Assembly (NCBI GenBank): GCA_031459765.1
Contig: JAVKHY010000002.1
Location: 321,350-385,349, forward strand
Source of the DNA: Armatimonadota bacterium
GTDB lineage: Bacteria > Sysuimicrobiota > Sysuimicrobiia > Sysuimicrobiales > Kaftiobacteriaceae
Length of the DNA stretch: 64,000 bases
Direction of reading: 5' to 3'
Shown here: positions 9,236 to 32,154 of the stretch, in pieces
Numbering within the stretch: the stretch's first letter is position 1
How the letters are laid out: every line of letters starts with the position of its first letter
Made by a program: the position numbers and the translations under genes
The notes under the pieces: generated by a model
Databases searched by the model: none
What the model saw: the letters and a program-made list of their open reading frames with translations, nothing else
Told to the model about the DNA's origin: nothing

Positions 9236-10216
9236 CTACCGGACGGAGATCGGGTTGGAGTCGGTCGCTTCCGGCATCTCCGGGAAGAGCCGCTGACAGA
9301 AGGAGAGGCGGATCCGAGCCCGGGTCGTGGGGGGGACCGCCTTCGGAATCGTCCAGACCAGGGCCCGGGCGGCGCCAGGGCTCCGCAGCAGGAGACAGTC
9401 GGTCTGCACCCCGTCCAGCCGAACACCGGCAACCGCCCCACCGGCGTGGACCAGCTGCCCGTCGCGACGCACGCCGACGGGGTAATCCGTGATGCGGCCC
9501 AACGTCAGCCGGACCTCTTCGCCGGGCCGGTAGCGATCCCACTCCGTGCGCAGGAGGAGGAGTCTGTTCTTGGCCCCCAGGTCTTGCTCCACCCTCGTCG
9601 TCGTCTCGTCCCAGAAGCGGCTGGGACCCACGTCGAGGTGCACAACCTGCGTCTGGCGGTAGTACCCGGCTCCGCAACAGTCCAGGCTTCGGACGAAGGT
9701 CCACAGCCGGTGCCCGCTCACTCCTTCCATCGCGATGTCGGCGGCCATGCCCTCGAGGTGCAGGCTGGTCCGCGCCGCCAGCCGACCCTGGCGGCGGAGC
9801 GCCTCGTTGTCGCCGGGACTCCGGTACCCGGAGATGATCCGGATCCTTCCCCCGTGCAGGCGATCCTGCAGATAGTCGAGGAGGGCGATGAGTCGGAGGG
9901 CCATCCCTACGGGAGCGTCCGGGGGGACCCCAAAGATCTCGTTGAGCCGCTTCCGGGCCGACGGCGGGTAGTCGCCCCGGGGCGTCCGGTAGCGGATCGC
10001 GCCGCCGGCGCCGGTCCGCACGTTGATCAGATGCACCGTCCCGTCGCCCTCCAGGAAGAAGCGCCCCGCCGGAGCGGCGACGGTGGAACACGAAAGCAGC
10101 AGGACAGCCCCGACGGCCCCGACGATCCTTCGACGCACGAATGGCCTATACGCTGGAGGCCGTCCGCTCACCTTGAGGAGGTCCCTGCCCGCGTCCGGGA
10201 AGGCCTCCGGCCTCAC
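9236..10216 (-). CDS. DUF882 / peptidase M15-like (YcbK family) secreted protein
   Basis: A 326-residue protein with an N-terminal hydrophobic segment ending LLLSCS, which could be a lipoprotein signal. The central domain carries the M15/DUF882 zinc ligands: His and Asp in TSLHLEGMAADIAM and His in QVVHLDVGP, with ISGYRSPGDNEALR before them. The C-terminal ~120 residues are beta-rich and unassigned. Members act on peptidoglycan or peptides outside the membrane. The start is GTG 10216, whose last bases overlap the stop of the CocE/NonD gene (GTGA), so coupled translation is likely; a GTG at 10138 would give a shorter signal peptide. It is the last gene of the long minus-strand run. Confidence 0.83.
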   Translation of the reverse strand: MRPEAFPDAGRDLLKVSGRPPAYRPFVRRRIVGAVGAVLLLSCSTVAAPAGRFFLEGDGTVHLINVRTGAGGAIRYRTPRGDYPPSARKRLNEIFGVPPDAPVGMALRLIALLDYLQDRLHGGRIRIISGYRSPGDNEALRRQGRLAARTSLHLEGMAADIAMEGVSGHRLWTFVRSLDCCGAGYYRQTQVVHLDVGPSRFWDETTTRVEQDLGAKNRLLLLRTEWDRYRPGEEVRLTLGRITDYPVGVRRDGQLVHAGGAVAGVRLDGVQTDCLLLRSPGAARALVWTIPKAVPPTTRARIRLSFCQRLFPEMPEATDSNPISVR

Positions 10217-12015
10217 CCGCGCCCCCCGTGGCGGTCAGGGACGACGGGCAGGAGCAGGAAGGACGGCGTCGCGCCGCCGCCGTAGACGGTCACCCGGCCG
10301 CCGTAGATCTCCGGACGCCGATCCCACGGATGGTTGTGCACGAACGGCCCGGAGCCCCGCATCGCCTGCCAGGGTCCGAGGGTCTCTCCCGAGACCGGAC
10401 GCTCCAGGTCCCGGCCCTGCACCGTGAGCGTCAACCGGTACCCGGGGGGAATTACAATGCAGGTCGGCCAGATCTCCACATCGACTTCATAGACCTGTCC
10501 GGGCACCAGCGGCTGCCGTTCGTCGTGCGCATGATAGGGACGGTAGGGCGTGGAGCGCTGCCGGTCCAGTTTGCGGTGGGAAGCCCGCAGCCAGCCCTGG
10601 GCGATGGGCGCCCGCGGCTCCACCGCGCCCGGAAAGGTCACCTCCCTGCCGTGCGGGTCGAAGAGCTGCAGGACCAGGAACAGGTCGGCGTCCGCGGTCG
10701 AGGAGGCGATGAAGAGCTTCGCCGCCACGGGACCGGTGACTTCAGTCGGCGCCTCGAAGGGCGCCGTGGAGAAGGTAACACCCTCCTCCAGCGCCCGGTA
10801 CGTCGCTGCGGCCTGGGCCGCGGGGGGGTCGGGCCGCAGGGTGCGGTCGGCGGGTGAGAGGTAGAAGCGGGTCCATCGGGTGCCGTCCAGCGGCCAGGCG
10901 GTCTCCTTCCGAGGTTCGAACCCGTCGACGTGGCGGATCTGGAGCAACACGGGCGGTTCCCGGTCCCAGCCGTTGTCCAGACCTTTGAGGAAGTGGTCGA
11001 AGAACCGCTTCTGGAGGGCGAGGCCGTAGTGGGTCGAAAAGTGGGTCCAATGCTCGAGCCCGTGGATCTCCAGCCACTTCCGGTTCGATGCCGCCTGCGC
11101 GAACGCCTCAACGTTGCCGCGCAGGTGCAGGCCCTGTCCGCCCCAGTTGCCCGCGGACAAAAACGGCACGGTGACCCGTGACCAGTCGGCGGACCGCTCG
11201 CGGTACCAGGAATCGTCCAGCTCGCGCCGCAGCGCCTCGCGCTGGGGATCCACCCGGTTCAGCGCCAGCACGCTGTCGGGCAGGGTGTCGGGGCCGGCCA
11301 CCAGTTCGCCGGTGTTGGGATCGACCGCTCCCCGCGTCCCGACACCGTGCTGCACCGTTTCCACCTGGGCCTTGAACCACGACCCGGTGAAGGTGCAGAG
11401 GATGCCGCCGTGCCGGTGCCAGTCGCGGTAGTAGTCGGCGGCCCCCTCCCAGGCGCACATCGCGGCAAGGTGCGGCGGCTGCAGCCCGGCCACCAGCCAC
11501 TGATTGATCGCGTAGTAGGAGATCCCGTTCAGCCCGATCTTCCCGTTGCACCAGGAGCGGGCCGCCACCCACTCGATGCACGCGGCGAAGTCCTGCGTCT
11601 CGCGCGGGGAGAAGATGTCGAGGAGGCCGGGGGACCGCCCCGCCCCGCGCGAGTCCACCCGCACGCAGGCGTAGCCGTCGGGGACCCACTTCTCCGGATC
11701 GACCACCTCCCAGTTCTGATACCGGCACGACGATCCCTCGGCGACTTCGGGGAAGGCCCGGATGAGGGCCCGCCACTGGTCCCGGTATCCCCACTGATAC
11801 GGCAGGCCCTTGCCGTACGGCCCGTAGCTCACGATGGCCGGATAGCGTCCGGGGGCGGCGGGCCGGAAGACATCGGCGCGGAGCACCACGCCGTCGTCCA
11901 TCGGCACGGGCACGTCGTACTCGATGCGCATGCCGGCGACCTCGACCGTTCGCCCCGGGGCCTCCTCGTCCGGTCGGCCCCTCCGCCGCCGGGCGCGCCC
12001 TGATCTCACCGCCAT
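10213..12015 (-). CDS. CocE/NonD-family alpha/beta hydrolase (S15-type), copy A
   Basis: A 600-residue cytosolic hydrolase of the X-Pro dipeptidyl-peptidase/cocaine-esterase superfamily. The N-terminal alpha/beta domain (MRIEYDVPVPMDDGVVLRAD onwards, from about residue 29) holds the oxyanion YGPYGKG and the nucleophile motif GLNGISYYA. The C-terminal jelly-roll domain (EVTGPVAAKLFIASS.., IVIPPGYRLTLTVQGRD) is typical. The putative catalytic His lies in LEHWTHFSTHYG; the usual GWYD aspartate motif is replaced by AGNWGG, as in the NonD branch. GGAGGAGGT precedes ATG 12015. A closely related copy occurs at 48476-50230 on the other strand. Substrate may be an ester or amide. Confidence 0.88.
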   Translation of the reverse strand: MAVRSGRARRRRGRPDEEAPGRTVEVAGMRIEYDVPVPMDDGVVLRADVFRPAAPGRYPAIVSYGPYGKGLPYQWGYRDQWRALIRAFPEVAEGSSCRYQNWEVVDPEKWVPDGYACVRVDSRGAGRSPGLLDIFSPRETQDFAACIEWVAARSWCNGKIGLNGISYYAINQWLVAGLQPPHLAAMCAWEGAADYYRDWHRHGGILCTFTGSWFKAQVETVQHGVGTRGAVDPNTGELVAGPDTLPDSVLALNRVDPQREALRRELDDSWYRERSADWSRVTVPFLSAGNWGGQGLHLRGNVEAFAQAASNRKWLEIHGLEHWTHFSTHYGLALQKRFFDHFLKGLDNGWDREPPVLLQIRHVDGFEPRKETAWPLDGTRWTRFYLSPADRTLRPDPPAAQAAATYRALEEGVTFSTAPFEAPTEVTGPVAAKLFIASSTADADLFLVLQLFDPHGREVTFPGAVEPRAPIAQGWLRASHRKLDRQRSTPYRPYHAHDERQPLVPGQVYEVDVEIWPTCIVIPPGYRLTLTVQGRDLERPVSGETLGPWQAMRGSGPFVHNHPWDRRPEIYGGRVTVYGGGATPSFLLLPVVPDRHGGRG

Positions 12016-12036
12016 CGCTGCAGTACACCTCCTCCA

Positions 12037-13383
12037 CTACAATGCCGGTACACGGCGCAGCCACTGCCCCCATCCCGGCTCACCGACGGGCCGACCATCG
12101 GCGGCGACCCGTCGGCCGCGGACGAACGTGGCCACCGGCCGGCCTCGCACCCGCCGCCCCGCATAGGGCGTCCATCCGGCCTTCGAGAGGATCTCCTCGT
12201 CGCGCAGCACCCGCTCCTGGCTCATGTCGACCAGCACCAGATCCGCATCCGCGCCGGGCTGCAGCGTGCCTTTCCTCGGATACAGCCCGTACAGCCGGGC
12301 CGGCGTCTCGGCCACCGCCTCCACCAGCCTCGGCAGCGTGAGGTGTCCTTCGTGTACGGCCTGCAGCAGCAACGACAGCGTCGTTTCCACGCCGGGCAGA
12401 CCGAAGTGGACCTGCCAGATGTCGCCGTCCTGCTTCTGGGCCCGCGTCGCCGGCGCGTGGTCCGTGGCCACATAGGCGATCTCTCCCCCGCGCAGCAGGG
12501 CCCACATCGCCCGCTCGTCGTCGGCGCTGCGGGCCCGCGCCGGCGGCGTGAACTTCCGGAACGGCCCCAGCCGTTCCACCTCGTCCTCGCGCAGGTAGAA
12601 GTACTGGGGGCAGCTCTCCACCCACACCGCCCCGCCCCGACGACGCTCCCGCCCGGCCAGCTCGACGGTCTGAGGGTTGCTGGCGTGGGCGACGACGACC
12701 CGCGCGCCGGTCAGGCGGGCCAGCAGGGCCACGGTCGCCGCGGCGGTCCACTCCGCTTCCCGCGAGCGCCACAGGGGAATGACGGCGAAGTCGCGGCGGC
12801 CGGCCGCCCGCAGCTCCCGCTCCGCAAAGGCCGTAATGGCGTCGTCCTCGCAGTGCACCAGACAGATCGCGCCGTGCGCGGCCGCCGTCCTGAACACATG
12901 GAGCAGATCGGCCGCACTCAGGCCGGCAATGCCGTGCGTGGTGCAGGTGAAGACCTTGAGGTAGAGCGCTCCGGCCGCCCAGACCTCCGGGACTTCCTGC
13001 AGCCGGTCGGGAAGCACATGGGCCGCCAGTCCGAAGTCCACCAGCGAGCGCCGCGCCAGATGCGCGGCCTTGGCCCGCAGCGCAGCGGCGTCGCAGACCG
13101 GGTGGGCGTGGGTGTGCTCGATCACCGTGGTCACTCCCCCGGCCGCTGCCGCGGCACTGCCGGTGATGAAGTCCTCGCGGTCGGTCGCCCCGGGGTCCAT
13201 GAAGTGGACGTGGGCGTCCACCATGCCCGGCAGGACATGCAGTCCGGCGGCGTCCACCACCTCGCGGGCCGGCAGACGCTCGGTGCTCACCGCCGCCACA
13301 CGGCCCTCGTGAAGGTAGACGTGGGCCCGAAAGCTGGACAGCGGTGTCACCACCGTGCCGCCCAGCACCGCCAGATCCAGCAT
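12037..13383 (-). CDS. Cyclic amidohydrolase (dihydropyrimidinase/allantoinase/dihydroorotase-like)
   Basis: A 448-residue metallo-amidohydrolase. The HxH pair is in GMVDAHVHFMDP, the probable carbamylated lysine in ALYLKVFTCTTHG, and further ligands in CLVHCEDD, VVVAHASNP and ATDHAPAT. The C-terminal beta strands PGADADLVLVD complete the fold. The family opens cyclic ureides or imides such as dihydropyrimidines, hydantoins or allantoin. ATG 13383 overlaps the stop of the preceding dehydrogenase gene by one base (TGATG). There is no other pyrimidine or purine degradation gene close by, so the true substrate is open. Confidence 0.87.
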   Translation of the reverse strand: MLDLAVLGGTVVTPLSSFRAHVYLHEGRVAAVSTERLPAREVVDAAGLHVLPGMVDAHVHFMDPGATDREDFITGSAAAAAGGVTTVIEHTHAHPVCDAAALRAKAAHLARRSLVDFGLAAHVLPDRLQEVPEVWAAGALYLKVFTCTTHGIAGLSAADLLHVFRTAAAHGAICLVHCEDDAITAFAERELRAAGRRDFAVIPLWRSREAEWTAAATVALLARLTGARVVVAHASNPQTVELAGRERRRGGAVWVESCPQYFYLREDEVERLGPFRKFTPPARARSADDERAMWALLRGGEIAYVATDHAPATRAQKQDGDIWQVHFGLPGVETTLSLLLQAVHEGHLTLPRLVEAVAETPARLYGLYPRKGTLQPGADADLVLVDMSQERVLRDEEILSKAGWTPYAGRRVRGRPVATFVRGRRVAADGRPVGEPGWGQWLRRVPAL

Positions 13384-14366
13384 CAGCCCCTCCCGCCCGT
13401 CAGGACCTCGGGGTTGGCCACGAAGGGCGGCCGGCCGCCGCGCAGGAAGGTCAGGATGCTGTCCACGACCAGCGCGGCGATGCGCTCGCGGGTCTCGGCC
13501 GCGGCGCTCCCCAGGTGCGGGGTCAGCACCACCCGGTCGAGGTCCAGCAGTCCCGGATGCACCTCCGGCTCCCGTTCGTAGACGTCGAGCGCGGCGCCGG
13601 CGATGCGTCCGGCCCGCAGCGCCTCCACCAGCGCGGCCTCGTCCACAATGGGCCCGCGGGCGGTGTTGATCAGGTAGGCCGTGGGCTTCATCAGGCCGAG
13701 CTCCCGCGCGCCGATCAGGTGATGGGTGCCGGGGTGGTAGCTGGCGTTGATCGCGACGAAGTCGCTCTCTGCCAGCAGGGCGTCCAGCGGGCGATACTCC
13801 ACCCCCAGCTGCCGTTCCTCGGCCACGCTCAGCCGGCCGCGCTTGGTGTAGAGCACGGTCATCCCGAACCCCGCGGCCCGGCGGGCGATCCCGCGCCCGA
13901 TGGCGCCGAGGCCGATCGTCCCCAGGACCTTGCCGTTCACCTCGGCGCCCACAAAGTACATCGACTGCGAGCCGGGAAACAGCCCCCGCCGCACCGCCCG
14001 GTCGCCCTCGACGATGCGCCGGGCCACGGCGAGCAGCAACCCCCACTGCAGGTCGGCGGTGGCTTCCGAGACGATGTTGGGGATATGCGTGACGGGGATG
14101 CCGCGGGCCGTCGCCGCGGCGATGTCCACGTGCGCGGGCACGACGGCCGAACTGGCGATGAGCCGGAGGCGTCGACCGGCGGCAATGATCCCGGCATCGA
14201 CCCGGTCGTGCAGCAGGCAGTACAGGATGTCGCAGCGGGCCACCTCTTCCCGCAACTGCTCGTAAGGCAGGATGCGGCTGCTGTCGGGATAGACGCGGAC
14301 CGTGCCCACCTCCCGCAGCCGCGTCAGCGCCGTCTCGGGAACCGGCTGGGTGACAAAGATCTCCAT
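13383..14366 (-). CDS. D-2-hydroxyacid dehydrogenase, copy A
   Basis: A 327-residue NAD(P)-dependent 2-hydroxyacid dehydrogenase (D-3-phosphoglycerate/glyoxylate/hydroxypyruvate reductase superfamily). The Rossmann motif is LGTIGLGAIGRGIARR. The catalytic Arg is in INTARGPIVDE, Glu in EREPEVHPG and His in LTPHLGSA. GGAGGAGGTCC precedes ATG 14366. It is tightly packed between the M24 peptidase and the cyclic amidohydrolase. It probably interconverts a 2-oxo and a D-2-hydroxy acid generated by the pathway; a second, less similar paralogue is at 25693-26679. Confidence 0.9.
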   Translation of the reverse strand: MEIFVTQPVPETALTRLREVGTVRVYPDSSRILPYEQLREEVARCDILYCLLHDRVDAGIIAAGRRLRLIASSAVVPAHVDIAAATARGIPVTHIPNIVSEATADLQWGLLLAVARRIVEGDRAVRRGLFPGSQSMYFVGAEVNGKVLGTIGLGAIGRGIARRAAGFGMTVLYTKRGRLSVAEERQLGVEYRPLDALLAESDFVAINASYHPGTHHLIGARELGLMKPTAYLINTARGPIVDEAALVEALRAGRIAGAALDVYEREPEVHPGLLDLDRVVLTPHLGSAAAETRERIAALVVDSILTFLRGGRPPFVANPEVLTGGRG

Positions 14367-14401
14367 CAGGACCTCCTCCGCTGCCGGGATGGTTCCGGCC
14401 G

Positions 14402-15631
14402 TCAGTCGTGCGTCTCCAGCAACCGTCGATCGTAGGGCAGGCGGGAGAGCCGTCGCGGGCCGTCCTCGGCGACCAGCACCATGTCCTCCAGCCGGACCCC
14501 GCCGCCGCCGGGCACTCCGGGGACCCAGATCAGCGGCTCCAGGGCGAAGAGCATGCCGGGCTGCAGTTCCACCTCGGCCGCGCCGGGAAACACCTCGCCC
14601 ACATAGGGCGGCTCATTGGCGCCCGCGCCGATCCCGTGCCCGATGAACAGGTTCAGGAAGCGCTCCGCCAGCCCGTGCCCCACGGCCGCCTGTCGGACCG
14701 CCGCGGCCACCTGCCCCGTGGTGGCGCCGGGGCGCATCGCCTCGATGCCGGCCTGCTGCGCGGCGTGCACCGCCCGGTAGATCCGCCGCTGCTCGGCGGA
14801 CGGCGTCCCGCAGATCACCGTCCGTCCGAGATCGGCGAAATATCCGTTCCACATCGCCCCGATGTCGATGAAGACCAGATCCCCGTGGCGGATCACCTTG
14901 TCCGTGGCCAGCCGCGTCGGCGGCGACATCCGCTCGCCCGAGGCGACGAAGGGCGTGATCACGTGGGCATACTCCCCGCCCAGACGGTAGAGGGCCTGCA
15001 TCGCCTCCGCGGCGACGTCGCACTCCCGGCGGCCGGGACGCACCGCCTCAACCGCGGCCTGCGTCACCGCCTCGGCGATGGCGACGGCCTCCTCGACCAG
15101 GGCCAGTTCCTCAGGCAGTTTGATGAGCCGCGCCGCCTGCATCGCCGCGTCTCCGTCCACCCAGCGCACCCCGGGATGACGCGCGCGGAGGGCGTCGTGC
15201 ATCGCCTGCGGAGCCAGATCGAGACCGATACGCGCGGCCTGCAGGCCGTGACGGCGCAGGACCCCGCCCAGGATCACTGCGACGACGTGATCGATCAACC
15301 CCTGCTCTTCGAGAATGGGAATGGGGTAGAACTCGGCGATCCAGGGCATGCCCTGCGCCGCCCGGTCGGCATCGCCGCCGGAGACGAACAGAATCGGATC
15401 GCCGGCGGGAAGGAGCAGCGCGCCGTTCAGCAGCCCGCTCTTTCCGGCGATGAGCTGGGGGCGCAGCCCGGTCAGATAGCGGACGTTCTCGTCCTTCCAC
15501 ACCAGGAGGGCGTCCAGCTCGCGGCGCCGCATCTGCTCCCGGACGCGGTTCAACCGGCCGGCCCGCAGCCGCGAAAACTCCACGCGCTGCTCGTAGTCGA
15601 CGCCGAAGGCGCCGGGCGCCCAGGAACGCAT
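14402..15631 (-). CDS. M24 metallopeptidase (Xaa-Pro aminopeptidase/dipeptidase type), copy A
   Basis: A 409-residue pita-bread-fold hydrolase with an N-terminal creatinase-like domain and a C-terminal catalytic domain. All five metal ligands are present: two Asp in IDIGAMWNGYFADLGRT, His in FIGHGIGAGA, Glu in FALEPLIW and Glu in RLEDMVLV. Because creatinases lack these ligands, a metallopeptidase or related amide hydrolase is more likely than creatinase. ATG 15631 shares one base with the stop of the alcohol dehydrogenase gene (TGATG). Substrate is unknown; X-Pro peptides are the family default. Confidence 0.88.
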   Translation of the reverse strand: MRSWAPGAFGVDYEQRVEFSRLRAGRLNRVREQMRRRELDALLVWKDENVRYLTGLRPQLIAGKSGLLNGALLLPAGDPILFVSGGDADRAAQGMPWIAEFYPIPILEEQGLIDHVVAVILGGVLRRHGLQAARIGLDLAPQAMHDALRARHPGVRWVDGDAAMQAARLIKLPEELALVEEAVAIAEAVTQAAVEAVRPGRRECDVAAEAMQALYRLGGEYAHVITPFVASGERMSPPTRLATDKVIRHGDLVFIDIGAMWNGYFADLGRTVICGTPSAEQRRIYRAVHAAQQAGIEAMRPGATTGQVAAAVRQAAVGHGLAERFLNLFIGHGIGAGANEPPYVGEVFPGAAEVELQPGMLFALEPLIWVPGVPGGGGVRLEDMVLVAEDGPRRLSRLPYDRRLLETHD

Positions 15632-16677
15632 CACGCCGCCCCCGCAACGCGCACCACGACGCGGCCGGCGGCGCGTCCCTCCCGGATCCGCTGCAGCGCC
15701 GTGTTGACCTCGGCCAGCTCCAGGACCTCGGAGATCACCGGACGCACCAGACCGCGCCCGACGAGGTCGATGGCCCGGGCCAGCTCCGGCCGGGTGAGGT
15801 AGCGGGAGCCGATGATGCTCACCTCGCGCAGGACGATCTGGTCGGTGGGGATCGTCGGCTGATGGGCCTCGTCGGTCGTGTAGCCCACCAGCACCATGCG
15901 CCCGCCCTTGCGCACCAGCCCCACGGCCAGGGCAGTGGAGGCGCCGCTGCCCACGCAGTCCACGACCAGGTCGGCCCCGCGTCCCCCGGTGACCTCCCGG
16001 CTCACCCCGGAGGCCTCCTCCGGTCGGACGGCGAGGTCCGCTCCCACCTGCCGCGCGGCGGCCAGCTGCGCCTGGCCGACGTCCACCGCCACGGTGCGGG
16101 CGCCGGCGGCACGGGCAAACTGGAGCGCGTGCAGCCCCACCCCGCCGGTGCCGATGACGACCACCGTCTCGCCGGCCCGAACCGCGCCCCGCGTCACCAC
16201 GGCGCGGTAGCCCGTGCCCAGGGCGCAGGACATCGCCGCGCCTTGTGGATCCGTGACGTTGGGGGGCAGCGGCAGCAGGTAGCCTTCGGGCACCGTCAGA
16301 TACTCCTGCAGCCCCCCGGGGGTGGTGAAACCCACCCATCCCCGCAGCGCGTCGCAGAGGTTCTCCTCGCCGGCCAGACAGTGGGGACAGCGTCCGCAGC
16401 CCCAGTAGTTGAACACGACGACCCGCTGGCCCACCGGCAGCGCCGTTCCCGGGCCGCGAGCGGCGACCTCCCCGACCACCTCGTGACCGGGGACGTGGGG
16501 AAGGACCTGTCGGGCCGAGAAGGGCATCCGTCCGTCAACGATCTTGAGGTCGGTGCGGCACAGGCCGCAGACCAGCACGCGGATCACGACCTCGCCGGGC
16601 CCCGGCACCGGCTCCGGCCGATCTGCGGGGACCAGCGGCTGGCCGAACCGCTCCACCACCATGCTGCGCACCGTCAC
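15631..16677 (-). CDS. Zinc-dependent medium-chain alcohol dehydrogenase
   Basis: A 348-residue MDR-family dehydrogenase. Catalytic zinc ligands are Cys in VCGLCRTDLK and the HE of VPGHEVVGE. The structural zinc site is CGRCPHCLAGEENLC. The NAD-binding motif is VVIGTGGVGLHA. The GTG start at 16677 overlaps the stop of the LivF gene (GTGA), indicating coupling. It oxidises an alcohol or reduces an aldehyde, presumably within the catabolic pathway served by the neighbouring transporters. Confidence 0.9.
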   Translation of the reverse strand: MTVRSMVVERFGQPLVPADRPEPVPGPGEVVIRVLVCGLCRTDLKIVDGRMPFSARQVLPHVPGHEVVGEVAARGPGTALPVGQRVVVFNYWGCGRCPHCLAGEENLCDALRGWVGFTTPGGLQEYLTVPEGYLLPLPPNVTDPQGAAMSCALGTGYRAVVTRGAVRAGETVVVIGTGGVGLHALQFARAAGARTVAVDVGQAQLAAARQVGADLAVRPEEASGVSREVTGGRGADLVVDCVGSGASTALAVGLVRKGGRMVLVGYTTDEAHQPTIPTDQIVLREVSIIGSRYLTRPELARAIDLVGRGLVRPVISEVLELAEVNTALQRIREGRAAGRVVVRVAGAA

Positions 16678-24472: not shown

Positions 24473-25689
24473 CCCACGGCGTCGACGATGGAGCGGAACT
24501 CGTCCAGGGAGAGCAGCCCCCGGATCGCCAGCGAGCGCTCCTTCACCCGGACCAGGATCTCGTCCACCCGCGGGTCGTCGGGCTTTACGGCCCTCCCGAT
24601 CTTGGAGAGGGCATACAGGACGGAGTCCCGGCCGCTCCCCTTGCCCAGGACGATCTCCGCCGGCTCGTGCCCCACCAGGTCCCAGTGGAAGGGGAACAAC
24701 TCCACCGGCCGCGTCTCCTTCAGCCGCGCCAGCCAGCTGGCGATGATGCCCGACTCGACCTTGAACAGCAGGTCGCCGACCACGGGGCGATTGGGCGGGA
24801 GGTGGATGCCGGTCAGCTCCTGGACCAGCTTGGAGAGCTCCCGGAACTTCTCGGTGCGCAGCCCGACGTCCACGCCGTACAGGGTGAGCAGGGCCAACCC
24901 CAGATCTTCCAGGGCGCAGTTGCCCGCCCGTTCGCCCAGGGAGGAGACCGTCACGTGGGCCACCTCCACGCCCAGGCTCAGCGCCATCAGCGTGTTGGCC
25001 ACGGCCATTCCGAAGTCGTCGTGGAAGTGGGCCTCCAGGGGCTTGTTGATCCGCGACTGGACGAAGCGGGTGAAGTACTGGATGGCGTGGGGGCTGGATC
25101 CGCCGAAGGTATCCACCAGGACCAGGGCATCCATGTGACCGTGGGTGGCCACTTCCTCGATGAGGCGCACGAACCAGTCCGGTTCGGACCGCGTGGCGTC
25201 GATGGGGAAGAACACCACCTGCAGGCCCTGCTCATGGGCGAACTTCGTCGCCTCCACGGAGAGGTCGATGGCCTTCTGCAGGGGCCAGCCGTAGGCCAGC
25301 TCGATGATGTGCTTGCTGGACGGAATCTCCACCACCACCCCGCTGACCCCGCAGTCCACGGCCCGCTGGATGTCGGGCACCATGCAGCGGGAGAAAGCGA
25401 AAATCTTCGGGCCCAGCTTCCGACGGACGATGGCCTTGATTGCCTCCTCGTCGGCTCGGCTCACGGTGGGCATGCCCGCCTCGATGCGGTGGACGCCGAC
25501 CTCGGCCAGCTTCTCCGCAATGCGGATCTTGTCGTCGGTGTTGAAGACGACCCCGGTCTGCTGCTCGCCGTCGCGCAGGGTGATGTCGTGAAACTGCAAC
25601 GACGGCGAGAACCGCAGCTGCGCCCGCACCTCCTCGGCGTAGTTATGGGGACTGGTGAACCAGCGATCGGTGAACCAGGGGGTGGCCAT
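24469..25689 (-). CDS. HMGL-like / 2-isopropylmalate-synthase-type acyl-CoA condensing enzyme
   Basis: A 406-residue protein of the alpha-IPM/homocitrate/citramalate synthase superfamily. The metal-binding N-terminal motif is FHDITLRDGEQQTG; the HxH metal pair and neighbours are LEAHFHDDFGMAVAN; the glycine loop is SSLGERAGNCALEDL. It lacks the long C-terminal LeuA regulatory domain, so it is unlikely to be a feedback-regulated leucine enzyme. Members join acetyl-CoA to a 2-oxo acid, or cleave the reverse. Here it probably processes a keto acid from the pathway. GAGGAGGT precedes ATG 25689. Confidence 0.85.
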   Translation of the reverse strand: MATPWFTDRWFTSPHNYAEEVRAQLRFSPSLQFHDITLRDGEQQTGVVFNTDDKIRIAEKLAEVGVHRIEAGMPTVSRADEEAIKAIVRRKLGPKIFAFSRCMVPDIQRAVDCGVSGVVVEIPSSKHIIELAYGWPLQKAIDLSVEATKFAHEQGLQVVFFPIDATRSEPDWFVRLIEEVATHGHMDALVLVDTFGGSSPHAIQYFTRFVQSRINKPLEAHFHDDFGMAVANTLMALSLGVEVAHVTVSSLGERAGNCALEDLGLALLTLYGVDVGLRTEKFRELSKLVQELTGIHLPPNRPVVGDLLFKVESGIIASWLARLKETRPVELFPFHWDLVGHEPAEIVLGKGSGRDSVLYALSKIGRAVKPDDPRVDEILVRVKERSLAIRGLLSLDEFRSIVDAVG

Positions 25690-25692
25690 CGT

Positions 25693-26679
25693 CTACCTCC
25701 TCGTCTCCATCGTGGGTTGGACCCGACTGACGGCGTATCGGGGCGGCTGCCCGGTGAGGACCCGGGCCACCTCCTCGGCCGCCTTGCGTTGCAGCTCCTG
25801 CAGCGACTCTTCGGAATAGAAGGCCACGTGGGGGGTGAGCACCACGCGGTCCAGCCCCCGCAGCGGATGGTCCGGCCCCGGCGGCTCGGTGGCCAGGACG
25901 TCCAGCGCCGCGCCCGCGATCCATCCTTCCCGCAGCGCCCGGGCCAGGGCCTGCTCGTCTACGATCGGGCCCCGGGCGGTGTTGATCAGGTAGGCCGTGG
26001 GTTTCATCCTACGCAGGGCGTCCTCTCCGATCAGCCCGCGCGTCTCGGGCAAAAGCGGCGCGTGCACGGACACGAAGTCCGATTCCGCCAGCAGCTCCGC
26101 CAGTTCCACCTTGCGGACGCCCAGGCGCTTCATCGTCTCCGCGTCCACATAGGGATCGGCGGCGATGACCTCCAGGCCCAGGGCCTGCGCTTTGGCGGCC
26201 AGGGCGCGCGGAATCTTCCCCAGGCCCACGAGCCCGAGCACCTGTCCCCGCAGCCGGTGGATGGGGACGGCGTCGCGGGCGTCCCACCGTCCCGACCGGA
26301 CGCGGTCATGCAGGTCCACGATCCGCCGGGCACAGGCCAGCAGGAGCGCCAGGGCATGATCGCTGACCTCGTCCACGCAGTAGTCGGGAACGTTGGTGAC
26401 CACGATGCCCCGCTCCGCGGCGGCGGCGAGATCGACGTTGTCCAGCCCGATGCCGTAGCGGGCGATGACCCGACAGCGCCGCGCGGCCTCGATCACCCGC
26501 CGCGTCACCGGCGCGTAGCAGACCAGCAGCCCGTCGGCATCTCCCACCGCCGGCACCAGCTCCGCCTCCCGGCTGGCCTGCAGGGCGACGAGCTCCGCCC
26601 CGATCGCCCCGAGCACCTCCCGCTCGATATCCAGGGAGGGGAAGACGTAATCGGTCACGACGACCTTCCACTGTCCCAT
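25693..26679 (-). CDS. D-2-hydroxyacid dehydrogenase, copy B (CtBP-like)
   Basis: A 328-residue NAD-dependent 2-hydroxyacid dehydrogenase. The Rossmann motif reads GLVGLGKIPRALA, in which the last Gly of GxGxxG is replaced by Pro. Catalytic residues are Arg in INTARGPIVDE, Glu in LATEPPGPDHP and His in LTPHVAFYSE. The substrate-binding loop is RYGIGLDNVDL. ATG 26679 (MGQWKVVVTD) is chosen because CGGAGG is six bases upstream; a TTG at 26694 is less likely. It belongs to the C-terminal-binding-protein-like branch, whose substrates are often unknown. Confidence 0.87.
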   Translation of the reverse strand: MGQWKVVVTDYVFPSLDIEREVLGAIGAELVALQASREAELVPAVGDADGLLVCYAPVTRRVIEAARRCRVIARYGIGLDNVDLAAAAERGIVVTNVPDYCVDEVSDHALALLLACARRIVDLHDRVRSGRWDARDAVPIHRLRGQVLGLVGLGKIPRALAAKAQALGLEVIAADPYVDAETMKRLGVRKVELAELLAESDFVSVHAPLLPETRGLIGEDALRRMKPTAYLINTARGPIVDEQALARALREGWIAGAALDVLATEPPGPDHPLRGLDRVVLTPHVAFYSEESLQELQRKAAEEVARVLTGQPPRYAVSRVQPTMETRR

Positions 26680-26732
26680 CGGCATCCTCCGCAATCGTCC
26701 CCAGTCGCCGGTCCCGCCCGCGGCCGAACCCG

Positions 26733-27440
26733 CTACGGGGCCTCGGCCTCCCGGCCGCCGGCTGCGGCCTGTCCTCCTTTGAGATAGGCGATCAGCCCCT
26801 GGGCCGCCGTCATCAGGTGCCGCTCCAGCGCCTCGGCCGCTTCCTCCTGGCGCCTCCGCCGGCAGGCGTCCAGGATCCGACGGTGCTCCCGCTGGGACTG
26901 CGCCTTGTGCTGCATCAAGGAGATGTAGATGCGGTGATACCGGTCCACGTTGGCCCGCAGGGTGGCGATGAGCGAGAGCAGCCGTTTCCGGTCGGCCGGA
27001 GCATAGAGGGTCATGTGAAAACTCCGATTGAGCTCGCTCCAGCGCCCGATGTCGTCCACCTGATCGATCTCATCCAGGATGGCCGCCGCCCGATCCAGGT
27101 CCGCCCTGGTCAGACGGGGGATGGCCAGGCGCAGGGCCAGGCACTCCAGAGTCACCCGGATCTCATAGATCTCCTCGACCTCCGCCACCGAGAGCTGGGA
27201 CACGATCGCCCCGCGGTGCGGGTAGACCGTGACGAGTCCCTCCGCATCCAGCCGCCGCAGGGCCTCGCGGACGGGGATGCGGCTCACGCCGAACTGGGCG
27301 GCCAGGGCATCCTGCTGGAGTTGCTGGCCACCCTGCAACACTCCCCGCAGGATGGCCTCCCGAAGCACATCGGCCACATGCTCGGCGGTGGTGAGACGCC
27401 GCGCCCTGGCCTTGGAAGCGAGATCACCCAGGGAGATCAT
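26733..27440 (-). CDS. GntR/FadR-family (FCD) transcriptional regulator
   Basis: A 235-residue regulator. The N-terminal winged helix (AQFGVSRIPVREALRRLDAE, then GLVTVYPHRGAIVSQL) binds DNA. The C-terminal all-helical FCD domain carries histidines of the usual metal and ligand site (SFHMTLY, QREHRRIL, LERHLM). The start ATG 27440 overlaps the livH stop (ATGA), so it is co-expressed with transporter system 2. A palindrome at 32403-32421, in front of the same run and of the divergent molybdenum hydroxylase, is its likely operator. Ligand is probably an organic acid or the pathway substrate. Confidence 0.9.
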   Translation of the reverse strand: MISLGDLASKARARRLTTAEHVADVLREAILRGVLQGGQQLQQDALAAQFGVSRIPVREALRRLDAEGLVTVYPHRGAIVSQLSVAEVEEIYEIRVTLECLALRLAIPRLTRADLDRAAAILDEIDQVDDIGRWSELNRSFHMTLYAPADRKRLLSLIATLRANVDRYHRIYISLMQHKAQSQREHRRILDACRRRRQEEAAEALERHLMTAAQGLIAYLKGGQAAAGGREAEAP

Positions 27441-28306
27441 CGCTTCAGCAGCGGGCTCCCGTACAGCCCCGTCGGCCGCACCAGCAGGATGCCGAGCATG
27501 ATGGCGAAGGGGGCCATCTGCGCCAGAGGCGCGTACACCAGGGACCCCAGGGACATGACCTGCCCGACAAGGAAGGCGGACACCAGCGTGCCTTTGATGC
27601 TGCCCAGGCCTCCGATGATCACGACCATGAAGACAAAGGCCAGGGCGCTGAGGCCCATCTGCGGGTCCACCATGATCAGCGGCGCGTGCAACCCCCCGGC
27701 CAGCCCGGAGAGCGTGCCGGCGAGTACGAAGGTGACGGTGAAGAGCCGGTAGACATCGATGCCCAGACCCTCCACGTGGTCCACGTCCTCGATCCCCGCG
27801 CGGATCGCCTTGCCGGTGATCGTCCGGTTCAGGAACAGCGCGATGCCCAGGTACACCAGCACGGAGAGGGCGACGACGATCAGGCGGTAGGTGGGGACGG
27901 GCGTTCCCCAGAGGACGACCTGGGCCTGGATCGGGATGGCCGCCGGTCGGGGGATCAGTCCCCAGATGTACTTGATCGTTCCCACGCCGCCGATCAGCAC
28001 CCCGAAGGAGGTGATCATGGTGAAGGTGATGTCCCGGGCGTAGACGCGGCGAAAGACGATACGCTCGACGAGCAGACTCGCCGCGCCCGCGACGCAGGCG
28101 CCCACCAGAATGGCCGTCCACATCTGCCCGGTGGCCACCTGCACGGTATAGGTCAGATAGGCGCCGAGGGAGTAGTACAGCAGCTGGTCCAGGCTGATGA
28201 TGCGCATCAGTCCAAAGCACAGGGAGAGGCCGATGGCCAGCAGGAAGTAGATGCTGCCCATGCTCAGCCCGTAGATGATTCCGGAGATCACCAGCTGGGT
28301 CTCCAT
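27437..28306 (-). CDS. livH: Liv-type ABC transporter permease LivH, system 2
   Basis: A 289-residue permease opening METQLVISGIIYGLSMGSIY, then FGLMRIISLDQLLYYSLGAY. It has the coupling helix RAGIEDVDHVEGLGIDVYRL and ends RPTGLYGSPLLKR, as LivH does. It is clearly divergent from LivH of system 1 (for example ISLDQLL in place of VNIAHGS), so the two transporters probably have different substrates. It overlaps the GntR gene by four bases and follows livM closely. Confidence 0.91.
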   Translation of the reverse strand: METQLVISGIIYGLSMGSIYFLLAIGLSLCFGLMRIISLDQLLYYSLGAYLTYTVQVATGQMWTAILVGACVAGAASLLVERIVFRRVYARDITFTMITSFGVLIGGVGTIKYIWGLIPRPAAIPIQAQVVLWGTPVPTYRLIVVALSVLVYLGIALFLNRTITGKAIRAGIEDVDHVEGLGIDVYRLFTVTFVLAGTLSGLAGGLHAPLIMVDPQMGLSALAFVFMVVIIGGLGSIKGTLVSAFLVGQVMSLGSLVYAPLAQMAPFAIMLGILLVRPTGLYGSPLLKR

Positions 28307-28309
28307 CGT

Positions 28310-29326
28310 CTACCCCGTCTCCTGCGGCACGGGAGCGCGGCGCCCGGACCGTCGGACCCGCCGCAGGAGGGCCTCCAGCGTGCCCCACAACCCCTGCTCC
28401 CCGGCCAGCATGATGAACACCAGGAGGAATCCCACGAAGAACTCCCAGTTCACGATGATCCGGCTCAGGACATCCTTCATCCCGGTGTAGACGATGGTCC
28501 CGATGATGGGCCCGTAGAGGGTCCCTACGCCGCCCAGGATCGTGACCACCACGGGGTCGGCCGCACGGTGCGGACCGGTGATCTCCGGGCTGACAAAGCC
28601 GAAGTACACCGCGTACAGGGAGCCGGCCAGCGCCGTGGTGGTGTTGGCGATGACGAAGGCCAGCCAGCGGATGGCGAAGTTGCTGTACCCCAGGAAGCGC
28701 ACCTTGTCCTCATTGATCTTGGTGGCCAGGCAGCAGGCGCCGTAGATGGTCTCGTCCAGATACTTGTAGAAGGCCCACAGCACCAGGGCGACGACAAAGG
28801 CGAAGACGAAGAACCCGGCCGGCGTGGTCAGATTCACCACCGGGGTGGCGGTCATCCGGGTCAGGAACCACAACCCGTTGTCGCCGTGGGTGAACTTGGC
28901 CAGGACCTTCTCCATGAGGTAGTACATGATCACGGCCAGCGCCAGGTTGACCAGGGCGAAGTAGTCGCTGCGCAGGCGGACGAAGAGCGGCCCGACGAGC
29001 AGAGCAACGGCCACCCCCGCGAGCAGTCCGGCCAGGATGCCCAGGTACGGGTTGGTGCCGGCATAGAAGAGGTAGAAGGCCGTGGCGTACGCTCCCACGG
29101 CCAGATAGGCCGGCTGGCCGAAGGAGATGAACCCGACCCGTCCCAGGAGGAAGTTGCAGCCCATGACGTAGATCGAAAAGATCACGACCTCGGTGGCGAA
29201 GGGCAGCGACATGAACACCCGCAGGAGGGCCACCACCAGAAAGGCGGCCAGTATGCCGGACCACCAGCGCAGCATGCCGGGGACCGACCGGAGGCCCCTG
29301 CCCTTAGAGGTAGCGCTCACAGACAT
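28310..29326 (-). CDS. livM: Liv-type ABC transporter permease LivM, system 2
   Basis: A 338-residue permease with eight or so membrane helices. LivM features include LLGRVGFISFGQPAYLAVGA, FTHGDNGLWFL and the coupling helix INEDKVRFLGYSNFAIRWLA. ATG 29326 lies 23 bases inside the end of livF, an overlap consistent with coupled translation; a later internal start cannot be excluded. It pairs with LivH of the same system. Confidence 0.91.
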   Translation of the reverse strand: MSVSATSKGRGLRSVPGMLRWWSGILAAFLVVALLRVFMSLPFATEVVIFSIYVMGCNFLLGRVGFISFGQPAYLAVGAYATAFYLFYAGTNPYLGILAGLLAGVAVALLVGPLFVRLRSDYFALVNLALAVIMYYLMEKVLAKFTHGDNGLWFLTRMTATPVVNLTTPAGFFVFAFVVALVLWAFYKYLDETIYGACCLATKINEDKVRFLGYSNFAIRWLAFVIANTTTALAGSLYAVYFGFVSPEITGPHRAADPVVVTILGGVGTLYGPIIGTIVYTGMKDVLSRIIVNWEFFVGFLLVFIMLAGEQGLWGTLEALLRRVRRSGRRAPVPQETG

Positions 29327-30020
29327 TGGCCCTGATCGCCTCCGGGTCTGAGATCTCGGCCACGATCCGCCCTTCCTTCACGGCGTAGACCTTCTCGGAG
29401 ATCGCGGAGACCACCGGCAGATTCTGCTCCACGATCACCAGGGTCGTCGTCCGGCTCAACTGCTTCAGCACATCTCTGAGGTGCTCCACGAGACCGGGGG
29501 CCAGCCCCTCCGTGGGCTCGTCGATGAGGAGGAGACGGGGGCGGCCCAGCAACGCCCGGCCGATCATCAGCATCTGGCGCTCCCCGCCGCTCAGGTACCC
29601 GCCCTTCCTGTCGAGGAGCTGGCGCAGCCTGGGGAAGTGCTCGAAGACCGGCTCCCAGTTCCGGTCGCCCGAGGCATGGCTGGCCAGCTCCAGATTTTCC
29701 CGAACGGTCAGGTCCGAGAACACGCGCTTGTCCTGCGGAACATACTTCAGCCCCCTCCGGGCGATCTGGTAGGGACGGAGACCGACGATGTCGCTTCCGT
29801 CGAAGATGACCGAGCCGGAGGTGGGCCGGAGGAACCCGGCGATGGTCCGCAGCAGCGTTGTCTTCCCGGCCCCGTTCCGGCCCACACACGTCACGAGCTG
29901 CCCGCGCCCGACCGTGAGGTGCGCGTCGAACAGCACCTTGGATTCCCCGTAGGCGACATTCAGCCCCCTGACCGTCAACAGGTCGCCGTCGTGCACCGCC
30001 CCGTCTCTCCCTCGGGACAT
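29304..30020 (-). CDS. livF: Liv-type ABC transporter ATPase LivF, system 2
   Basis: A 238-residue LivF-class ATPase. Walker A is GRNGAGKT (47-54), the signature YLSGGERQMLM and Walker B LLLIDEPTEGLAPG, followed by LVIVEQNLPVVS with the normal LivF Gln instead of His. It heterodimerises with LivG, encoded five bases upstream. The N-terminus (MSRGRDGAVHDGDLLTV) is slightly long and the start could be a few codons later. Confidence 0.92.
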   Translation of the reverse strand: MSRGRDGAVHDGDLLTVRGLNVAYGESKVLFDAHLTVGRGQLVTCVGRNGAGKTTLLRTIAGFLRPTSGSVIFDGSDIVGLRPYQIARRGLKYVPQDKRVFSDLTVRENLELASHASGDRNWEPVFEHFPRLRQLLDRKGGYLSGGERQMLMIGRALLGRPRLLLIDEPTEGLAPGLVEHLRDVLKQLSRTTTLVIVEQNLPVVSAISEKVYAVKEGRIVAEISDPEAIRANVCERYL

Positions 30021-30024: not shown

Positions 30025-30804
30025 TCAGCCCGGCGCGGCCCCGATCTGCCAGTAGCTCCGCCGGACCTCCGGGTGGTGCAGGGTCTCCGCGTAGGCGCCG
30101 TCGGCGATGATCCTGCCGTCGTGCATCACGGTGAGCCGCTCCACGAAGCCGGCGATCTGGGAGACTTTGTGCTCCACGATCAGGATGGTCTGCCGGCCGA
30201 TGTGTCGGCGCAGCACGCCGAGCACTCCTTTGATCTCCGCCTCGCTGAGGCCCGCCAGGGGCTCGTCCAGCAGCAGCACCCGGGGATCGGCCAGCACGGC
30301 CATGGCAATCTCCAGGCGGCGCTTCTCGCCCAGGCTGAGGTGCCGCACCAGGCGGTGGCGAACGTCCCAGAGATCAAAGTTCTGCAGCGCCTCCTCGATC
30401 GGCGCCTCATCCCAGTAGCGTCGGCGGGGCGTCAGCACCATCGAGAGCAGCGAAGGGCGGTAACGCGCCCGGAAGTAGGCCAGCACCAGGTTGTCGGTGG
30501 TGGTGAGGTTGTCGAAGGTCGAGGTGAGCTGAAAGCTCCGCATCAGCCCCAGCTCGATCCGCTTCTCGGGCGGGTACCGGGTGATGTCCTGGCCGCTAAA
30601 GAGGATGGTGCCTTCATCGGGCAGGTGGTAGCCCGTGAGGAGGTTGAACAGGGTGGTCTTGCCCGCCCCGTTGGAGCCCACGATGCCCGCCACCTCGTTC
30701 TCGCGCAACGCGTAGGTGACGCCGTTCACCGCCACGAGGTCGCCGAAGCGTTTCGTGACCCCGACGGCCCTGAGCAACTCGGCCCCGCCGGGAGTGCTCA
30801 CCAC
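30025..30804 (-). CDS. livG: Liv-type ABC transporter ATPase LivG, system 2
   Basis: A 259-residue ATPase with Walker A GSNGAGKT, signature HLSLGEKRRLEIA and Walker B VLLLDEPLAGLSE, followed by LIVEHKVSQIAG. The segment MRSFQLTSTFDNLT is the normal LivG Q-loop neighbourhood. It forms the ATPase pair with LivF. The gene is separated by 108 bases from the upstream binding-protein gene, the largest gap in the whole minus-strand run, so an internal promoter is possible there. Confidence 0.92.
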   Translation of the reverse strand: MVSTPGGAELLRAVGVTKRFGDLVAVNGVTYALRENEVAGIVGSNGAGKTTLFNLLTGYHLPDEGTILFSGQDITRYPPEKRIELGLMRSFQLTSTFDNLTTTDNLVLAYFRARYRPSLLSMVLTPRRRYWDEAPIEEALQNFDLWDVRHRLVRHLSLGEKRRLEIAMAVLADPRVLLLDEPLAGLSEAEIKGVLGVLRRHIGRQTILIVEHKVSQIAGFVERLTVMHDGRIIADGAYAETLHHPEVRRSYWQIGAAPG

Positions 30805-30912
30805 CGGGTCTCCCTTCTGCCTCGCGCGCCCGCAGGGCCGTGCCGCGAGGCCCCGCGGGCGCTCCCGCCCCGCCGTCTGTCGGCGGATCGTCCCACCGAC
30901 ACCAGGACTCCG

Positions 30913-32154
30913 CTAATACCCCATGGACTTCAGGTCCGGCATCACAACCTCGCCGCCCTGATAGCCCAGGACCTTGAAGAGGTCCCAGGGATGCTTCTGC
31001 TCGCCCGCCCCCTTGCCCCTGACCAGGAACGCCGCGAACTGGTAGACGGCGGCATGATCCTCGCGCCAGCGGGCCGGTCCCTTGACCGTCGTGAACTGGG
31101 GCTTGGCCACCAGCGCCCGGCCCACCGCCTTCGGTTCGAAGGTGCCCGCCGTCTCAAACCCCCTGAACATCTCGCTGAAAGCCGTATAGGCGATGGTGGC
31201 GTAGGCGTCGGGCGGTGTTCCGAACTTGGCCTGGTACGCCTCGGTGAAGGCGGCCGCGCTCTTGGTCACCCCCATGTGGCCCAGGTCGCTGAGGTCGTAG
31301 TAGAAGTAGTGCATGGCGTACACGCCCTCCAGGGCCTCCGGAGGAAGTCCCTTCGCCACAACGTTGGTGATGAAGGCGTTGAAGATGGTCATCTCCCTGT
31401 TCAGGCCCATCTGATGGACCTGCTTCAACAGGGCGACGGCGTCGGCGGCGAACTGCGCGGAGATGAAGACGTCGGGCCGGGCGGCGCGGACCTTCTGGAG
31501 CACCGTGGTGAAATCGGTGGTCCCGAGCGGCACCTCGTCGTAGCCGACCACCTCAGCGCCATGCTGCTTGGCCGCGGCGTAGACGCCGTCCCGGATGTCC
31601 CAGCCCCAGCTGTCGGCCCGGGCCAGGAAGAAGATGCGCCGCTTCCCCAGCACCTTGACGGCCGAGGTGCCGGACATGTATCCCACCGTCCACGGACTGT
31701 AGGCGACGGCAAAGGTGGTGTCGGCCAGCTTACCCTTGAGGAACGCCTCCTTCGCCATGACGCAGGTCGGGAAGTAGGGGAGCGGTTCCTTCATCACGAC
31801 GGCGTTCAGGGCGTAGGCGAGGGGAGCCCACGTCTGGCCGCCGACACCTTTCACTCCCTCCGAGACGAGGTAGCGGAAGCGCCGCACACCCACGTCCAGC
31901 TTGGCCTCGTCGTCGGCCACCACCCCTTCCACCTGGACCTTCCCCCAGGGCATGGCCAGGCCGCCCTTGGCGTTGACGGTGTCGATCGCCAGCAGGGCGC
32001 CGTTCTTCTGGGTCTCCGCCACGGCGGCAAACGGACCGGTCAGGGGCAGCAGGATGCCGACCTTGATCCTGGTGGGCTGGGCGGGTGCGGCGCCGGCGGC
32101 GGTAAGCGCGCCGGCCAGGACGATGAACAGCAGCAAGATCAGCCACCTTCTCAT
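30913..32154 (-). CDS. livK: Periplasmic substrate-binding protein of Liv-type ABC transporter, system 2
   Basis: A 413-residue binding protein. The signal peptide is MRRWLILLLFIVLAGALTAA, and the fold opens IKVGILLPLTGPFAAVAETQ. Mid-domain features are IFFLARADSWGWDIRDG and EVPLGTTDFTTVLQKV. It is first in the 22-gene run and downstream of the predicted operator and promoter, with a leader of about 230 bases. GGGAGGGGAGACCG precedes ATG 32154. The frame is open upstream but without recognisable sequence. It sets the specificity of system 2. Confidence 0.91.
   Translation of the reverse strand: MRRWLILLLFIVLAGALTAAGAAPAQPTRIKVGILLPLTGPFAAVAETQKNGALLAIDTVNAKGGLAMPWGKVQVEGVVADDEAKLDVGVRRFRYLVSEGVKGVGGQTWAPLAYALNAVVMKEPLPYFPTCVMAKEAFLKGKLADTTFAVAYSPWTVGYMSGTSAVKVLGKRRIFFLARADSWGWDIRDGVYAAAKQHGAEVVGYDEVPLGTTDFTTVLQKVRAARPDVFISAQFAADAVALLKQVHQMGLNREMTIFNAFITNVVAKGLPPEALEGVYAMHYFYYDLSDLGHMGVTKSAAAFTEAYQAKFGTPPDAYATIAYTAFSEMFRGFETAGTFEPKAVGRALVAKPQFTTVKGPARWREDHAAVYQFAAFLVRGKGAGEQKHPWDLFKVLGYQGGEVVMPDLKSMGY

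Follow-up and report, generated by a model that had tools for sequence, protein, structure and literature searches.

A conserved gene cluster with two unusual M24 enzymes and its possible role in the degradation of nitrogen-containing ring compounds by uncultured bacteria

In the nicotinate pathway of Eubacterium barkeri, a cyclic amidohydrolase acts after a molybdenum hydroxylase (Mo-hydroxylase), and the genes form a cluster (ndhFSLM, hnr, ena and others). Similar enzyme families are found in other described systems. Hydantoinase/carbamoylase and allantoin clusters combine a cyclic amidohydrolase with an amidase, and the isochorismatase and CN_hydrolase families both contain N-carbamoyl amidases. 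Creatinine and creatine degradation uses creatinase, an M24 enzyme, and N-carbamoylsarcosine amidase of the isochorismatase family. The ectoine utilisation cluster codes for a non-peptidase M24 hydrolase (EutD/DoeA) and for EutA, and another M24 protein, DddP, is a lyase of dimethylsulfoniopropionate (DMSP). Here we describe a locus which shares parts with all of these systems. It lies in an Armatimonadota genome (2.8 Mb, 29 contigs), in a stretch of 64,000 nucleotides with 70% G+C at positions 321350-385349 of contig C2, which we call the window. It consists of a run of 22 genes and a divergent Mo-hydroxylase operon.

Codon-position statistics and Pfam place the 22 genes on the minus strand in unbroken succession, from 32154 down to 9236. 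In the order of transcription, the first is the substrate-binding protein SBP1 (30913-32154; Peripla_BP_6, 2.8e-62), followed by two ATPases (30025-30804 and 29304-30020; ABC_tran) and two permeases (28310-29326 and 27437-28306; BPD_transp_2), which complete a Liv-type importer (Liv1). Then come a GntR/FCD transcriptional regulator (26733-27440; GntR and FCD), the D-2-hydroxyacid dehydrogenase HADH1 (25693-26694; Pfam), an isopropylmalate/homocitrate-synthase-like enzyme, HMGL (24469-25689; HMGL-like, 4.9e-61), an ACMSD-type amidohydrolase_2 that is a probable decarboxylase (23441-24472; ACMSD matches of 165 bits in the PDB) and the M24 metallo-enzyme M24b (22179-23444). The rest of the run codes for two permeases (21253-22107, kept beside M24b in relatives, and 20212-21249; BPD_transp_2) and the substrate-binding protein SBP2 (18918-20174; Pfam, tblastn) of a second importer (Liv2), an isochorismatase-family amidase resembling RutB and N-carbamoylsarcosine amidase (18170-18895), the two Liv2 ATPases (17394-18158, ABC_tran and BCA_ABC_TP_C; 16674-17378, ABC_tran), a zinc-type medium-chain alcohol dehydrogenase (ADH; 15631-16677; ADH_N/ADH_zinc_N), a second M24 protein of the prolidase branch, M24a (14402-15634), the D-2-hydroxyacid dehydrogenase HADH2 (13383-14366), a hydantoinase/allantoinase-type cyclic amidohydrolase (12037-13383), a CocE/NonD-family serine hydrolase (10213-12015; Peptidase_S15 and PepX_C, TIGR00976) and finally a DUF882/Peptidase_M15_2 gene (9236-10216; Pfam). 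Pfam agrees with the gene families named in a first-pass annotation of this DNA, which had also described a one-strand run with tight spacing. That description was right, because many junctions are stop/start overlaps of 4 bp or 1 bp (10216/10213, 13383/13383, 15634/15631, 16677/16674, 23444/23441, 24472/24469 and 27440/27437) and the widest intergenic gap is 108 nt (30804 to 30913), the value it had given. On the minus strand inside 9000-28900, one sigma-70-like promoter match was found, against 0.8 expected in shuffled sequences.

Are these genes inherited together? To answer this, the 43 genomes of the order, which is probably that of CSP1-3/Sysuimicrobiota, were searched with M24a, the hydantoinase-type enzyme, CocE, HMGL and the isochorismatase, and M24b was used as the marker. 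Orthologs of M24b with 76-92% identity are present in a patchy subset of the order (among 100 relatives). M24b (at least 76% identical) was found in 17 of the 43 genomes, M24a (at least 63%) also in 17, the hydantoinase-type enzyme (at least 61%) in 18 and CocE (at least 61%) in 16, while the remaining 25 have none of these four. The co-occurrence of the four gives Fisher p values of about 1e-9 to 4e-11, to be read with the reservation that related genomes are not independent. Presence or absence is all-or-none inside the genera g1, g13 and g16, and likewise inside g11 except for two metagenome-assembled genomes (MAGs) that are 64-68% complete. Gene order is kept as well. In G012, a genome of another family, the first 12 genes stand in the same order and 21 of the 22 are present overall; the missing one is the DUF882 gene. 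No homolog of that gene was seen in any related locus read, and it was dropped from the pathway set in which the first-pass annotation had placed it. The gene set is more than a chance association, since the same strand order recurs in other genomes and the genes co-occur across genomes. The genes from SBP1 to CocE thus very probably make up one conserved catabolic unit, with DUF882 outside it.

A broader scan with the M24b alignment against 84,980 species genomes gave 44 loci, nearly all from MAGs, at 64-92% identity. Going by the record titles, they belong to Armatimonadota, Bacillota, ANGP1, HR32 and the like, Actinomycetota including Solirubrobacterales, Dormibacter, Nitrospinota and Tectomicrobia. 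Some of these loci are contigs of genomes already counted above (for example, L037 is contig C124 of G012) and are therefore not independent evidence. The core conserved across phyla is M24b with HMGL and/or HADH1 and a GntR/FCD gene: HMGL adjoins M24b across phyla, HADH1 is linked to it in Armatimonadota, Bacillota and Actinomycetota, and GntR/FCD genes recur beside it in other phyla. A nearly full set is present in the Bacillota locus L049 (CocE-HADH2-hydantoinase-isochorismatase-Liv2-M24b-GntR-ADH-ACMSD-HMGL). The Actinomycetota locus L042 has M24a, M24b, HMGL, ADHs, hydantoinase and HADH1, and in the Dormibacter locus L064 hydantoinase, isochorismatase and Liv2 adjoin ADH-M24b-HADH1. Orthologs of SBP1 adjoin M24b in L043 of Bacillota and in L047, at 59-62% identity, and the SBP1 ortholog of G012 is 79% identical. 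Judged by sequence identity, M24b is the most conserved marker of the system.

Some of these loci carry further genes. In Nitrospinota (e.g. L069:13149-18043), M24b-HMGL is followed by an arylmalonate-decarboxylase (AMDase)/EutA-like gene, an esterase, an ADH and two bicupin genes, which is a second, different downstream module on the same M24b-HMGL core. Adenine-deaminase-like amidohydrolases (TIGR01178, under the cut-off) are encoded near M24b in Bacillota and Solirubrobacterales (L046:3349-6920, L052:8114-9886 and L054:1497-3308), and L046 also has an aldehyde:ferredoxin oxidoreductase. In G017 and G012, genes for C_GCAxxG_C_C redox proteins recur within the cluster or next to it (L016:8756-9553 and L020:17283-18080).

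Is it one system, or two adjacent operons for different substrates? In the latter case Liv1, GntR, HADH1, HMGL, ACMSD and M24b would serve one substrate, and Liv2, isochorismatase, ADH, M24a, HADH2, hydantoinase and CocE another. In favour of two operons, the first block includes a regulator and an importer, and the stretches read from Nitrospinota, Tectomicrobia and some Bacillota have M24b-HMGL(-HADH1) but not the second block. The two blocks also stand apart or on separate contigs in G017 and G025. However, across the order M24b co-occurs almost perfectly with M24a, the hydantoinase-type enzyme and CocE, family f7 has members of both blocks in one cluster (HADH2-M24a-M24b-ACMSD-Liv2), and L042, L049 and L064 of other phyla also combine them. 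We therefore regard two independent operons as unlikely. The first-pass annotation had proposed one pathway, and the joint gain and loss of both halves and their merging in f7 support it. Scattered and unlinked genes in relatives were what it had named as speaking against this proposal; some scattering is indeed seen, partly onto different contigs, but the genes still co-occur.

The same annotation saw the two halves as duplicated modules, each with an amidohydrolase. Within the window, tblastn identities between paralogs are 33% for the M24 proteins, 43% for the hydroxyacid dehydrogenases, 24% for the substrate-binding proteins, 30-36% for the permeases and 33-42% for the ATPases. The two amidohydrolases are not a duplicated pair, because they differ in family: the enzyme at 12037-13383 is Amidohydro_1 (hydantoinase/allantoinase type) and that at 23441-24472 is Amidohydro_2 (ACMSD type). 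These identities of 24-43% and differing families rule out duplicated modules, and on the sequence comparison the M24, HADH, SBP, permease and ATPase pairs are old paralogs. By Pfam the two Liv importers are each complete, with one substrate-binding protein, two permeases and two ATPases. SBP1 and SBP2 score 55-68 bits against a cut-off of 477, and SBP1 lies far under the cut-offs of both UrtA and LivJ/K.

The M24 proteins, identified by family matches, are of special concern for the function. Their five metal ligands (D, D, H, E, E) are kept in all 18 homologs of M24a and in 53-54 of the 54 homolog rows of M24b. The +7 His of the motif HGxGLxxHE, seen in 1pv9, is replaced by Asn362 in M24a and by Tyr358 in M24b, both invariant among orthologs. 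This replacement points away from ordinary dipeptidase activity in either protein. It bears on another explanation, a scavenging operon for peptides and amino acids, in which Liv systems would import oligopeptides or D-/N-modified dipeptides, the M24 and CocE/S15 proteins would act as Xaa-Pro peptidases, the hydantoinase-type enzyme would open cyclic dipeptides, and the HADHs would reduce 2-oxo acids. Xaa-Pro peptidases do exist in both the M24 and the S15/PepX families, amino acids are cargo of Liv systems, and expression of genes for assimilating peptides and amino acids was reported in CSP1-3 members (PMC11604079). Against it, the +7 His of M24B peptidases is absent from both proteins in every ortholog, the fold of M24b is nearest to DddP and not to a peptidase, the cluster is without an aminotransferase or amino-acid catabolic gene, and the Mo-hydroxylase and the ACMSD-type enzyme would be left unexplained. 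Scavenging of this kind is quite improbable.

Could M24b instead act on an osmolyte, as a C-S lyase of the DddP type or as an amidine hydrolase of the DoeA/EutD type? Its nearest solved folds are indeed DddP DMSP lyases (TM 0.80), and an AMDase/EutA-like gene adjoins M24b-HMGL in Nitrospinota, just as the ectoine cluster has an M24 protein and EutA. But the identity to DddP is just 20%. Six metal ligands, D295, D297, D307, H371, E406 and E421, were reported invariant in DddP (PMC4108388). The corresponding positions in M24b are D275, N277, D287, H351, E384 and E399; five ligands are in common, and DddP D297 is an Asn in all 54 homolog rows. The scores are 5-10 times under the DddP and DoeA cut-offs (for the DoeA/EutD model TIGR02993, with a cut-off of 613, M24a has 106 bits and M24b 64 bits), the hydantoinase-type enzyme and the isochorismatase would both be unexplained, the cluster showed no deacetylase of the DoeB/EutE type, and the DMSP context is absent here. 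An identity of M24b with DddP is ruled out by N277 and the score, and an osmolyte pathway of either type has little probability. Unlike creatinine and creatine degradation, with which the M24 enzyme and the isochorismatase-family amidase are in common, the cluster has no creatininase or sarcosine oxidase that we could find, and both M24 proteins are distant from creatinase, M24b having about 20% identity to it in the fold comparison.

Several other enzymes also keep their catalytic residues. All 8 homologs of the hydantoinase-type enzyme have the binuclear ligands H56, H58, K141, H175, H231 and D306. Its closest relatives in a PDB search are hydantoinase and allantoinase; against the allantoinase model AllB (TIGR03178) it scores 306.6 bits, under the equivalog cut-off of 357.85. 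An exact identity as allantoinase or enamidase was thus set aside, the scores being under the cut-offs and enamidase not among the best 60 PDB matches. The isochorismatase has the triad D34/K145/C178 (Asp-Lys-Cys) in 11 of 11 homologs, with 94 bits against the ureidoacrylate amidohydrolase RutB (TIGR03614, cut-off 377.95). In the ACMSD-type enzyme H15/H17 (HxH), H181, H231 and D297 are invariant in 29-30 homologs. HADH1 has the triad R241/E270/H289 and Asp180 of the NAD type; HADH2, whose best model is glyoxylate reductase at a score under the cut-off, has the R/E/H triad and Lys175-Arg176 of the NADP type, so that from these motifs the two would use NAD and NADP respectively. HMGL has RDGEQ, the HxH metal motif and GERAGN in 12 orthologs (GERSGN in one, L060). 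The His of the LeuA motif GKHSG is G, S or N in all 12, while it is kept in the genome's own LeuA-like paralog L079. HMGL has 287 bits against the best LeuA model (cut-off 517), and its AlphaFold2 model (pLDDT 88.7) is nearest in fold to homocitrate and isopropylmalate synthases, consistent with an enzyme of the homocitrate/isopropylmalate synthase and aldolase kind. Two further isopropylmalate-synthase-like paralogs in the same genome, L081 and L082 (G000:C3:84648-85847 and G000:C1:376746-377921), have HDVTLRDGEQTARVA and GRGxG motifs and are a class distinct from both LeuA and the cluster HMGL.

The boundaries 9236-32154 of the first-pass annotation were too narrow, because they leave out the divergent Mo-hydroxylase operon at 32474-36162 on the plus strand. 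It codes for a FAD subunit (NdhF/XdhB-like, 32474-33358), a 2Fe-2S subunit (NdhS-like, 33348-33833), a large molybdopterin subunit (NdhL-like, 33830-35137) and a medium molybdopterin subunit (NdhM-like, 35110-36162). The best PDB matches of the last two are the nicotinate dehydrogenase chains 3hrd_A (331 bits, next protein 212) and 3hrd_B (309 bits, next protein 214). As in nicotinate dehydrogenase, there are four subunits and the molybdopterin part is split in two, and the genes follow the order F-S-L-M reported for E. barkeri (PMC10331938). In G012 the orthologs (64-81%; medium subunit 80%) are collinear, upstream of SBP1, and in Bacillota (46-65%; medium subunit 65% in both loci) they follow Liv1 in L043 and M24b in L048. 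Unlike the E. barkeri cluster, the present one has a hydantoinase-like amidohydrolase and additional M24, isochorismatase, ACMSD-type, HMGL, HADH and Liv genes, and its Mo-hydroxylase is optional. A specifically nicotinate (pyridine-3-carboxylate) pathway, with hydroxylation to 6-hydroxynicotinate, ring reduction and hydrolytic opening, would fit these molybdopterin subunits and the presence of a cyclic amidohydrolase, but is highly improbable, for the amidohydrolase is closest to hydantoinase/allantoinase, no gene of the cluster was recognised as a 6-hydroxynicotinate reductase (no query search for hnr, ena, hgd, hmd, mgm, mii, dmdAB or dml was made), and most genomes with the cluster lack the Mo-hydroxylase, so nicotinate is not the general substrate.

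In the shared divergent region lies a perfect palindrome, ATTGGATA-CAT-TATCCAAT (32403-32421), with 8-bp arms and a 3-nt spacer; one match with at most three mismatches was found where 0.13 are expected. It is a candidate GntR operator. The region upstream of the G012 Mo-hydroxylase has nothing closer than an AT-rich, imperfect palindrome of loose similarity, and an operator common to the relatives was dropped, the exact palindrome being unique to the window.

What could be degraded? From the direct observations, namely the gene content, the conserved catalytic residues, the conserved linkage, the inheritance of the genes together and the Mo-hydroxylase as an extension of the locus, we infer the chemistry of each step, the order of the steps and the substrate class. 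In our judgement there is about an even chance that the 21 genes from SBP1 to CocE and the Mo-hydroxylase operon make up a single catabolic pathway whose substrate is a small ring compound that contains nitrogen and is probably carboxylated. The substrate class, held with the same middling confidence, would be a nitrogen-containing ring carboxylate or a ureide (an N-heteroaromatic acid, cyclic imide or ureide). Such a compound would be taken up through Liv1 or Liv2 and optionally hydroxylated next to the ring nitrogen by the nicotinate-dehydrogenase-like enzyme. Side chains would then be oxidised and decarboxylated by the zinc ADH(s) and the ACMSD-type enzyme. The hydantoinase-type enzyme would open the cyclic amide or ureide, and the isochorismatase-family amidase would remove the amide or carbamoyl nitrogen. 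In G025 a CN_hydrolase takes the place of the isochorismatase, whose ortholog is missing there; since both families contain N-carbamoyl amidases, their company with a hydantoinase-type enzyme suggests, by analogy, a pair for ring opening and decarbamoylation or deamidation. The two M24 enzymes may cleave a C-N (or C-S) bond, HADH1 and HADH2 would interconvert a 2-hydroxy and a 2-oxo acid, and HMGL would carry out a C-C bond step that brings the carbon into central metabolism. GntR/FCD would be the regulator, perhaps through the palindrome. Hydantoinase and allantoin clusters likewise have a cyclic amidohydrolase with all metal ligands and an amidase of a family with N-carbamoyl hydrolases, but no AllC, HyuC or racemase was found in the window cluster, the scores are under the allantoinase and hydantoinase cut-offs, and the two M24 enzymes and HMGL are extra here.

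Several points weigh against this proposal. Orthologs of HMGL and of the isochorismatase are present in 12 and 11 of the 18 cluster-bearing genomes, so that each is missing from 6-7 of them, and the stretches of Nitrospinota DNA that were read show M24b-HMGL but no hydantoinase. Just three of the 43 genomes (G000, G012 and G017), all among the 18 with the cluster, have a close ortholog of the medium Mo-hydroxylase subunit; the Mo-hydroxylase may be an optional add-on or a mere neighbour, and its divergent operon could be unconnected with the cluster in the window genome. The exact palindrome is not repeated in relatives. Moreover, no pathway enzyme attains a curated equivalog cut-off, and therefore no reaction is assigned with certainty. 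With only three genomes having it, we treat the Mo-hydroxylase, together with Liv1, as an optional entry module. The two related entry routes of the first-pass annotation are plausible in this altered form, with Liv1 and the adjacent Mo-hydroxylase optional and Liv2 kept more widely, and not as they were stated.

Other genes of the window were considered for membership. Between the Mo-hydroxylase and a sugar-type cluster, at 36174-40075 on the minus strand, are genes for a TRAP transporter (DctM, small subunit, DctP) and for a regulator of the Crp family; the transporter (36174-39133) was rejected as a part, since relatives show no consistent linkage and none to M24b. The sugar-type cluster is a plus-strand run at 40178-50230 with GFO/IDH/MocA, short-chain dehydrogenase/reductase, TIM-barrel, substrate-binding protein, two permease, TctC and cupin genes. 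It was also rejected, as consistent linkage was not found in relatives, though the second CocE/NonD gene that ends it (CocE2, 48476-50230, plus strand; 78% identical to the cluster CocE) remains a lead. A multi-haem cytochrome c gene with CXXCH repeats and Cytochrome_C554/C7 matches is at 5421-6653 on the plus strand.

The first-pass annotation knew of no named pathway with this combination, and a search of open-licence papers bears it out, with no described cluster of this gene combination. The component families are all known; what appears undescribed, to judge from the open-licence literature, is their combination, its conservation across phyla and the pair of unusual M24 enzymes. We put forward tentatively, with somewhat less than even confidence, that the cluster is a new, horizontally shared pathway of N-heterocyclic or ureide degradation, with a non-peptidase M24 pair (at least one new reaction) and an isopropylmalate-synthase-like lyase; it would occur in several uncultured phyla, and in some lineages a Mo-hydroxylase of the nicotinate-dehydrogenase type would feed it. 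If so, it would be a route of carbon and nitrogen catabolism in several uncultured phyla that has so far gone unnamed because its enzymes carry peptidase and amidohydrolase annotations. M24b, at 64-92% identity across phyla, could then be used as a marker gene, the M24 family would hold unexplored chemistry, and the pathway would give hints at substrates for enriching these uncultured bacteria.

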